Origin: a candidate division WOR-3 bacterium
GTDB lineage: Bacteria; SDB-A
Assembly: GCA_016934535.1 (NCBI GenBank)
Contig: JAFGSQ010000011.1
Coordinates: 1-43,481, forward strand
Direction of reading: 5' to 3'
Length of the DNA: 43,481 nucleotides
Part shown: in pieces, positions 5,528 to 9,410 of the stretch
How positions within the stretch are numbered: position 1 is the first letter of the stretch
Layout: each line of letters begins with the position of its first letter
Notes under the pieces: generated by a model
Databases searched by the model: none
What the model was told of the DNA's origin: nothing
The model's input: the letters and a program-made list of their open reading frames with translations, nothing else
Made by a program: the position numbers and the translations under genes

Positions 5528-7411
5528 ATGCTATCAATAATGTTGTCGTTGTTGATCGGTTTCAACACCGCTCAATACGTAGTAAACGGCGACTTCGAGC
5601 AGGATCTCAACACGGGATGGAAACAGGTTTTAAACGGAGCCGGAGCAAGCATAACCCGTTCCACCGCCTTTGATCCTGATCCCAATTACGAAGTTCGAGT
5701 CGGTAAATCCACAGGAGGAGGGTACGCCCTTCTTTCACAGACAATTTCGGTTCCGACAACCGATTTGGTTTTTTCAGCCAACGCAAAAATTTACGCTGTG
5801 GCCACTTCGACTGCCTGGGCTGGATCGGCGCTCATTCTGAAGTACCTGGACCAGAACGGAAATATTCTCGGTGAGACGAGAATTTGCGCAAAGACCGGGT
5901 ATTGTCCTTGGGCAAACTCACCGACAATGCATTTGATAGTAGTTCCGGATTCCCAATGGCACAATCATTCTTTCAACGTCAACACCGAACTTGCAAATCT
6001 CACGGCTGTAAATCCAGACAACGTAAAAAATATAGAAATTGCCCTGTTTGACTCAACGTACGATTGTTGAGGGGGCTCAGAATTGGCGGAGGTCTCCGCC
6101 GACGATGTGACACTGTCTTACACAGGCTCAACCCCTTACATAGTCCTTGTTCAGACAACCATAGACGACGATGCCGGAAACAACAACGGCAGACTCGACC
6201 CAGGAGAAACGATAGATCTCACCGCAACTATAAGGAATGCCGGCGGGGTCAATTTCACCAACGTCTCTTCACATTTGATATCAACAGACCCCTACATCAA
6301 CATAACCGATAACACAGGTGTATTCGGCGCTCTCATGATAGACAGTGTAAAAACTAACAATTCGGATCCCTTCACTTTGACTTGCAACGCTTCAACTCCC
6401 GAAGGGCATGAAGCCTCGTTCGGCCTTGTGATTAACGACGGAAGTTATTATGACACACTTGAATTTATAATAGTTGCGGGACATTATTCTTACCTCGTAC
6501 TCAATCTCGACGCCACCCCTCAGTCCGGAAATAACATCGACAGTATTTTGGACGCTCTCGGATATTCGGGAACCGTCACCGCGTCTCTTCCTTCCGATCT
6601 CTCCATATACAGGACTTTGTTCGTATGCCTCGGAATTTATCCAAACAACACAGTAGTTTCAGCTGGAGGCGAAATAGCGAACTCTATTGTGGCTTTCCTC
6701 AATAACGGCGGAAGCGTTTACATGGAGGGCGGCGACATGTGGTACTACGATATCGGGACCGGAGGTCACGATTTCGGACCGATGTTCGGTATACAACCTG
6801 TCGCTGACGGATCAGGTAATCTCGGACCTGTTGTAGGCATTTCAGGCACCTTCACTGCGACGATGAATTTCAACTACGGCGGTGAAAACAGCTACATAGA
6901 CCAGATAAACGCCACCGGAACCGGTACAGTTATATTCAGTGACGGAAACGACAACTACAACTGCGGAGTGGCTAATCAAACCTCAACATACAGAACCGTC
7001 GGCACGAGTTTCGAGCTCGGAATGCTCACAGATGCAGCTGACGCTTCGACCAGATCCGATTTACTCGACTCTATAATGACCTTCTTCCTGGAAGGATTGA
7101 ACGCCGTCGCCGAACAACCTGTTGTAAATCCATCGCCGACTTCTCTCATGATCACCCCGAACCCGTTCGTAAAACATGTGACTATAAGTTTCACAGCTCC
7201 GTCCGGAGTTACATCCGGAATGGAAATATTTGACATCTCGGGAAGAATAGTCAGAGAGTTTTCCTTCGGACAATCGGAAAACGACCGGATAGTCACGGTA
7301 AATTGGGACGGTAAAGACGGAAACGGAATTGAAGTGCCGGAGGGCGTCTATTTTGTCAATGTCATAGCCGGAGAAAGTTCGGGTTCAGAAAAACTGATTT
7401 TGGTAAAATAA
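5528..7411 (+). CDS. Predicted secreted selenoprotein, Sec181 (copy 1); UGA recoded at 6068-6070
   Basis: A 627-residue product if TGA at 6068-6070 is read as selenocysteine. ATG 5528 lies 7 bases after AGGGGAGG. The TGA follows Cys180 and the same frame stays open to TAA 7409-7411. Domains: short signal-like segment (1-16, no basic residues); CBM-like jelly roll (about 17-195; NGDFEQ near the start, SADDVTLSY at the end) with Cys120, Cys126, Cys180 and Sec181; CARDB-like Ig domain (about 204-316; GRLDPGETIDL); GATase/ThuA-like domain (about 321-521; SIVAFLNNGGSVYMEGGD); FlgD-Ig/type IX-like sorting domain (about 535-627; ITPNPF, FDISGRIVREF, GVYFVNV). A SECIS-like hairpin follows the TGA. 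Normal termination would give only the 180-residue CBM-like part. The function is unknown; a surface or secreted redox or ligand-binding role is inference. No family with this Sec position is known to me. Confidence 0.85.
6083..6102 (+). promoter_or_regulatory. Bacterial SECIS-like hairpin, copy 1
   Basis: Stem GGCGGA (6085-6090) pairs with TCCGCC (6095-6100) around the loop GGTC (6091-6094); flanking TT/GA extends the stem to 8 bp with one G-U. The loop begins 20 bases after the TGA, within the spacing used by bacterial SECIS elements (about 16-37 to the apical loop). The central AGGUCU equals the E. coli fdhF loop. The fdhF bulged U is not evident. The element lies inside the coding frame, as bacterial SECIS elements do. 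Confidence 0.85.
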
Positions 7412-7526: not shown

Positions 7527-9410
7527 ATGATTGGCATACTTTTTTCTTTACTAATCGGATCCAACTCCGCTCATTATATGATAAACGGGAATTTTGAACA
7601 GGATCTTTCCTTGGGATGGGAACAGTTCATCAATGCCTGGGGCGCTGAAATAATCCGCGGAACAAATTTTGACCCGGATCCCGATTTCGAAGTCAAGGTC
7701 ATCAAACCTACCGGCGGAGGGCACGTAATTCTGGGCCAGATTGCGTTCGTTCCGACAACAGACATCGTTTTTTCAGCTGATATTAAATTATTCGCGAGCG
7801 CCACGTCGACATCCTGGTCGGCAGCGGCTCTGGTGATAGGATATATAGACGCTGAAAACTCCCTGCTCGGTGAGACGAGAATATGCGACAGGACAAGCTA
7901 TTGTCCGTGGATCAGCACTCCGACGATACATCTGATGGAGGCTACAGACTCCATGTGGCATTATTACACTTTCAATTTGAGCGACGAACTAACCAATCTT
8001 TCCGGAATAAATCCTGATAATGTCCAAAAAATCAGAATAGAGCTTCTCGACACTTCTTATAATTGTTGAGGCGCTTCGCAATTGGCGGAGGTCTCCGCCG
8101 ACAATATATCTCTTTCGTATAGCGGTCCGAACCCGTACGTCTCAATCATCAGCAAAACAGTCCTGGATCTGACCGGAAACAATGACGGACATCTCGATCC
8201 GGGAGAAACAGCCGATCTGACAGTCACTCTGAAAAACATAGGCGGGGTGAATTTCTCCACCTTGACGGCAACTCTTGTCTCAGACGATCCGGATGTTTCT
8301 GTAACAGACAACAGCGCAATTTACGGGGTAATAGCAATAGACAGTTCCAAGACGAATTCATCTGATCCGTTCACCGTCGTCTGTTCCTCATCGGCGCAGG
8401 AAGGGAGGGAGGCGCTTCTGAAACTGATTCTCAGAGACGGATCTTACTGCGATACTATGCCTTTGACATTGACAATCGGCATGTACGATTATCTCGTCCT
8501 CAATACAGATCCTACTCCCGTATCCGGATTCATCATAGACAGCGTTCTTTCCACGCTCGGTTATTCAGGCGTTTACACAGTAGAACTGCCTTCCGATCTG
8601 TCCTATTTCAAGTCGCTTTTCATCTGCCTCGGAGTCTGGCCCGACAATACAATCATACAACCGGGCAGCGATTACGAGACGGCTCTTGTAAATTTCATAA
8701 ATTCCGGCGGAAACGTATTTATGGAAGGCGGAGATGTATGGTTTAACGACCCTCTTGCCGGAGGTTGTAATTTCGGTCCGCTGTTCGGCATACAATCTTC
8801 CGGCGAAGCTTCAAACAACCTCGGACCGGTGTACGGTATTTCCGGGGCTTTCACTGCAGGCATGAATTTCGGATACGCGGGAGAAAGCAATTTCATAGAC
8901 TGTTTGAATCCCGTGGGAAACGGATTCAGAATACTTAGAGATCCGAACGACAATTACAACTGCGGAGTCGCAAACCAGACTGCCGATTACAAGACAGTAG
9001 GCATGAGTTGCGAACTGGGTATGCTCACCGACTATTCGGGCGTATCAACCAGATCAGCTTTGCTGGATTCAATAATGAGATTCTTCGGAGAAGAGGCAAA
9101 TTCTGCCGAGGAAATTCCGATCAAGACGGGTCCCGTTAATCCGATTTCTGCTTTCCCCAATCCGTTCACCGAACGAATTCTGATAACTTTCACGGCACCC
9201 ACAAACGTTATTTCAAGAGCCGAAATATTCGACATATCAGGAAGAACAGTCCGCGAATTCACTTTCGGCGCATCCGGCGTTGACAGATTAGTGACTATTG
9301 AATGGAACGGGAAAGATGAACAGGGAAATGGACTTCCCCGTGGCGTTTATTTTGTTAAAGTATCGGCTGGCGAAAATTCGGACCAGGAAAAAATGATCTT
9401 TGTTGAATAA
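7527..9410 (+). CDS. Predicted secreted selenoprotein, Sec181 (copy 2); UGA recoded at 8067-8069
   Basis: A tandem paralogue of the gene at 5528, roughly half to two-thirds identical by eye, with the same 627-residue length and TGA again at codon 181 directly after Cys180. ATG 7527 follows GGGAG by 6 bases. The same domains appear in the same order: signal-like segment, CBM-like jelly roll (conserved GETRIC...YCPW gives Cys120 and Cys126), CARDB-like, GATase-like and C-terminal sorting domain (FPNPF, FDISGRTVREF, GVYFVKV). After the TGA the residues are GASQLAEVSAD, against GGSELAEVSAD in copy 1. Keeping the TGA, its spacing and the hairpin in two diverged copies argues strongly against a sequencing error or a decaying gene. 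It has its own terminator. Confidence 0.85.
8082..8101 (+). promoter_or_regulatory. Bacterial SECIS-like hairpin, copy 2
   Basis: GGCGGA (8084-8089), GGTC (8090-8093), TCCGCC (8094-8099), at exactly the same distance from its TGA as in copy 1. The surrounding 23 bases (8080-8102) are identical to 6081-6103, although the neighbouring codons on both sides differ, including synonymous changes. Confidence 0.85.

Follow-up and report, generated by a model that had tools for sequence, protein, structure and literature searches.

The window analysed here is a 43,481-nt stretch of a WOR-3 genome (contig JAFGSQ010000011.1, assembly GCA_016934535.1). It contains two tandem genes, each with one in-frame TGA upstream of the same 23-base block. 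The features are the following:

5528-7411, + strand: candidate selenoprotein gene, copy 1; 627 aa with UGA read as selenocysteine (Sec181), single in-frame TGA, TAA stop
5528-6127, + strand: copy 1, signal-peptide-like start and predicted Sec-bearing N-terminal beta-sandwich domain (aa 1-200)
6068-6070, + strand: copy 1, putative Sec codon UGA, residue 181, with Cys180 just before it
6081-6103, + strand: copy 1, 23-base block, identical to 8080-8102
6085-6100, + strand: copy 1, predicted SECIS hairpin, stem GGCGGA/UCCGCC, GGUC loop at 6091-6094
7151-7402, + strand: copy 1, C-terminal type IX sorting / FlgD-Ig-like tail (aa 542-625)
7527-9410, + strand: candidate selenoprotein gene, copy 2; 627 aa with Sec181, single in-frame TGA, TAA stop
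7527-8126, + strand: copy 2, predicted Sec-bearing N-terminal domain
8067-8069, + strand: copy 2, putative Sec codon UGA, residue 181
8080-8102, + strand: copy 2, 23-base block, identical to 6081-6103
8084-8099, + strand: copy 2, predicted SECIS hairpin, GGUC loop at 8090-8093
9153-9398, + strand: copy 2, C-terminal type IX sorting tail (aa 543-624)

The two copies have 628 codons each, with the TGA at codon 181 in both, and they align without gaps over their whole length (1884 nt) with a protein identity of 55%. An earlier, sequence-only reading of this DNA had reported that the 23-base block is identical in the two genes, and indeed both places, 6081-6103 and 8080-8102, read exactly AATTGGCGGAGGTCTCCGCCGAC. 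No other identical run in the paralogue alignment is as long, the runner-up having 17 nt. All seven codons inside the block (186-192) are identical between the copies; elsewhere, this holds for 47% of the degenerate codons that encode the same residue in both (Fisher p=0.005; residue-specific product ~3e-4). Across the 2.23-Mb genome, the exact 16-nt palindrome occurs at two places only, both of them the window copies; a copy with two mismatches (GGCGGAGTTCTCCGGC) lies on the minus strand at G000:C16:55354-55369. The Rfam gathering scan of the window returned nothing but tmRNA, with a tmRNA gene at positions 176-524 (185.9 bits).

The sequence-only reading had also placed a SECIS-like hairpin 20 bases after each UGA. 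This value is correct for the distance between the UGA and the GGUC loop, whereas the hairpin itself starts 14 nt after the UGA. Its further claims, that the centre AGGUCU equals the apical hexamer of the E. coli fdhF SECIS and that the spacing fits the bacterial rule, held on comparison: the match is real, and loop, stem and spacing all fall within the published bSECIS rule, which describes a loop of 3-9 nt with a G in the first two loop positions and a stem of 4-16 bp (PMC13188914). As for the remaining thresholds, we used a spacing of 16-37 nt from UGA to apical loop and a free energy of at most -7.5 kcal/mol. In 115 homologues in all, the two copies included, an in-frame UGA lies upstream in the same coding region, the loop is GGUC, AGUU or GGUU on a stem of at least 5 bp, and the loop follows the UGA after 17, 20, 23 or 26 nt; one row first called at 32 nt was a mis-picked hairpin, and the motif is present in all 115. 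Folding energies range from -11.9 to -16 kcal/mol (45-nt windows). Their z values, from -1.1 to -2.5, are unremarkable and not decisive by themselves, and the minimum-energy fold of copy 2 is a competing alternative rather than the SECIS hairpin. The decisive support for the predicted hairpin is covariation in homologues, not folding energy. A covariance model run over the genome did not reveal this SECIS type in any further gene: the known genes, all three of which belong to its training set, scored 46, 44 and 38 bits, and the next hit scored 14.6, a chance value.

The apical hexamer AGGUCU and the position of the hairpin within the coding region are common to the window element and the E. 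coli fdhF SECIS. The distance from UGA to hexamer is 17 nt in fdhF and 19 nt in the window copies, and the host gene is unrelated to fdhF. The E. coli fdhF SECIS carries a bulged U, whereas the hairpin of the window family has an uninterrupted stem of 6-8 bp without it, so the element is fdhF-like in the loop only. Since it has the fdhF loop and obeys the bSECIS rule, the hairpin would be a SECIS of known kind, although the family element is far more sequence-conserved than described for bSECIS in general (PMC13188914).

A first scan with the whole protein mostly returned C-terminal homologues without the Sec domain, and the closest of them (L020) ends at a contig end, at residue 198. The family profile consists of the N-terminal 200 residues that carry the UGA. 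It matched three of the four genomes of the window's own phylum and 50 of 147 WOR-3 genomes, with up to nine domain matches in one genome, and the window's own genome holds a third paralogue. The Sec codon could be placed in 116 distinct homologues, window copies included, which sets the family size at 116 genes or more: it is TGA in 115 (three of these rows required a one-codon alignment shift) and TGC in one (L103). In a wider set of 386 genomes, two more sequences turned up: L176, a UGA copy that lies outside both the window's phylum and WOR-3 and has the identical core hairpin, and L177, a homologue that lacks the Sec position. Neither is counted among the 116. No TGA other than that of the Sec site is present in 99 of the 114 frames checked, and most of the remaining frames have their extra TGAs close to the end, where they probably act as the real stop. 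In one homologue (L086, G098:C196:4674-5288), the codon of the otherwise conserved Trp31 is a TGA as well, which probably reflects a mutation or an assembly error. No relative was found in viral contigs and no match in the single genome of the phylum of G017, and Marinimicrobia (the phylum of G018) gave only two weak partial matches, neither with a TGA; genomes outside the sampled phyla were thinly covered. Most or all of the genomes involved appear to be metagenome assemblies.

The genome has the genes for using Sec, as tRNA-Sec, SelA, SelB and SelD are all present. The tRNA-Sec (anticodon UCA; 50.7 bits, above the Rfam gathering cut-off) is split over two contig ends, G000:C71:3-82 (L004) and C53:1-84 (L005), with ~79 bases in common, and on C53 it lies directly upstream of selA-selB; ARAGORN found nothing at either locus. 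In the SelD gene (G000:C43:23941-24861, L167), an in-frame TGA occupies the SelD Sec position (AGUAAKIGP) and, as in the window genes, a hairpin with GU in its loop follows. This hairpin (AGGUC-CGUGC-GACCU) differs from that of the window in sequence and loop. Given the machinery and a SelD with its own TGA, the genome very likely uses Sec in this recognised selenoprotein too. The same TGA and GU-loop hairpin are found in SelD of three relatives, two from the same genus and one from the same family. Among the WOR-3 genomes, SelB scores over the cut-off in 45 of the 50 that are family-positive and in 16 of the 97 that are family-negative (Fisher 1e-18). The five family-positive genomes without SelB over the cut-off (G009, G085, G099, G125 and G131) may be incomplete assemblies (MAG gaps).

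The hairpin is present in every TGA homologue (115/115; loop GGUC in 104, AGUU in eight and GGUU in three), and no case was found in which it is lost while the TGA is kept. The covariation score, which rests on 42 distinct sequences with 98.8% of cells pairing, was 0.489, against 0.187 ± 0.017 in shuffles (0/500 reached 0.489) and at most 0.178 in slid-partner controls. Shuffles ignore relatedness; therefore, events were also counted by parsimony on one tree with one rooting, for which only the protein part before the Sec site was used. The pair 187.3-190.3 is Watson-Crick in 115/115 homologues (GC 98, AT 13, TA 2, CG 2, unpaired 0), position 187.3 being silent (Ala) and 190.3 usually silent, and on this tree it shows 14 inferred compensated switches and zero one-sided changes. 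Taken together, the four stem pairs have 34 compensated double changes and three changes to an unpaired state on the same tree. Furthermore, codons 188 and 190 switch as complements (AAG/TTC, GAG/TCC, AGG/CTC, TGG/TAC and CAG/TGT); therefore, RNA pairing dictates the amino acids at these two positions. The hairpin contains three four-fold sites, with third-base entropies of 0.45, 0.75 and 0.76 bits; for 14 further conserved four-fold sites of the domain the values are 1.64-1.95 bits, so that synonymous divergence is not equal inside and outside the block. The low silent-site entropy and the silent-silent covariation both support the proposal, made from the two copies alone, that synonymous identity is a sign of selection on the RNA.

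These data have to be weighed against the idea that the hairpin is kept merely through a conserved protein motif, A-[KE]-V-[FSL]-A-D; the palindrome would then be incidental, and the UGA would be either a stop or an error. Residues 187, 189, 191 and 192 are nearly invariant, as this idea would have it, and the motif is retained even in the Sec-less L177 (G535:C157:10890-11414), a clear domain homologue from a distant lineage that has lost the Sec loop by deletion but reads HADVYADD and thus keeps AxVxAD. The same homologue speaks for the opposite as well, since it has the motif (codons GAC GTG TAT) without any hairpin or palindrome; it also indicates that the fold does not need Sec. Moreover, residues 188 and 190 change as complementary codons, the pairing of the silent third positions 187.3/190.3 in all 115 TGA homologues already refutes a protein-level cause, and sequencing error does not explain a UGA that recurs at one site in 115 genes. 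We consider this explanation extremely unlikely.

A regulated or leaky stop is another possible role of the UGA: the hairpin could aid readthrough by a near-cognate tRNA, or selenium supply could split the product, with Sec not functionally needed. Truncation at 181 would in fact remove the last strand and all C-terminal domains, and Sec-dependent termination at UGA is intrinsic to selenoprotein genes. Nevertheless, the strong co-occurrence with SelB, the fdhF-type loop, the bSECIS spacing and the Sec machinery, including a Sec-type SelD, argue against it, and the sole sense codon that replaces the UGA encodes Cys; this makes a leaky stop very improbable. The Cys homologue (L103, G118:C1:2500109-2500705) has an altered hairpin, in which the loop is AGUC and the stem is weaker and includes a G-U pair; its genome also carries several UGA copies. 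Reassignment of UGA to Trp or Gly in this lineage would account for in-frame TGAs within long frames, but there is usually a single TGA per gene, at the hairpin site, and internal in-frame TGAs are absent from the main neighbouring genes of the window. The third paralogue is informative here, as its internal TGA is accompanied by a hairpin and its terminal TGA, without a hairpin, serves as the stop. The probability of a reassigned code is therefore negligible.

Regarding the protein, the T9SS type A sorting domain (TIGR04183) scores 36.7 and 41.5 bits in the window copies against a cut-off of 23, and a type IX tail is usually present in other family members, although it varies. The hydrophobic start and a type IX tail above the NCBIfam cut-off in both copies suggest that the proteins are exported. 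The N-terminal domain has weak similarity to CBM_4_9 and other carbohydrate-binding beta-sandwich modules. The Pfam similarity to CBM_4_9 was seen in 7 of 37 members (best E 0.0034), the family does not reach the gathering score, and the window copy has no match at all. An AlphaFold model of the domain, computed from the two window copies alone, is an all-beta sandwich (pLDDT 63, pTM 0.68), and its best Foldseek matches include CBM families 11, 16 and 61 (TM ~0.4). The weak profile matches and this medium-confidence model suggest a CBM-like domain; the full-length model (pLDDT 35) was uninformative. To our knowledge, no CBM_4_9 or other carbohydrate-binding beta-sandwich member carries Sec.

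In the domain model, Sec is located in a loop just ahead of the last strand of the beta-sandwich. The preceding residue is Cys in 66 of 116 homologues and no other Cys is invariant, which rules out CU as a universal functional motif, there being no invariant partner Cys. Most likely, Sec would act as a surface-exposed selenol or in a Cys-Sec bond, for redox or for ligand or metal binding. A more specific proposal starts from Sec being practically irreplaceable by Cys (115:1), without an invariant Cys partner, on an exported CBM-like module: it could be a surface ligand, a metal site or a cross-link and not a thioredoxin-type redox pair. We put this forward tentatively, with the odds somewhat against it.

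The explanation that we favour, with a probability of about 0.95, builds on what this analysis observed: the UGA with its hairpin, the covariation of the stem, the genes of the Sec machinery and conservation throughout the family. The block would be the upper stem-loop of a bacterial SECIS, and both genes would encode exported selenoproteins with Sec at UGA181. Sec incorporation, SelB binding and export are what we infer from the sequences. SelB, with GTP and Sec-tRNA-Sec, would bind the GGUC-loop hairpin in the mRNA and, from a loop 20 nt downstream, deliver Sec at UGA181, so that translation would continue through the remaining 446 codons. The product would then be exported via its N-terminal signal and C-terminal type IX sorting tail.

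We could not find this protein family described in the sources compared. A 2026 catalogue lists 119 prokaryotic selenoprotein families, several of which use a CU motif, as window copy 1 does; no listed family joins a CBM-like domain to a type IX tail, and the window family is absent from it (PMC13188914). In Pfam and NCBIfam (June 2026) there was no model of the family, and no NCBIfam selenoprotein model matched it. A sequence search of the PDB with the domain profile gave no match, and in the openly licensed literature we found no selenoprotein work on WOR-3, Stahlbacteria or Caldifarciminota. The authors of deep-Sep state that Cys homologues now appear to exist for all known selenoproteins, and that families without them may be filtered out by their pipeline (PMC12013277). 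The present family, whose 116 genes include a single Cys homologue, falls into this blind spot, and its genes would be split or truncated by any gene caller that takes UGA for nothing but a stop.

These results would add a large selenoprotein family in WOR-3 and related uncultured bacteria. Sec would here be carried by exported, probably surface-bound proteins without a thioredoxin fold, which is rare. With its compensatory codon changes, the near-fixed SECIS forms an unusually clean natural data set for SelB-SECIS recognition, which also bears on how RNA structure can dictate the choice of amino acids.
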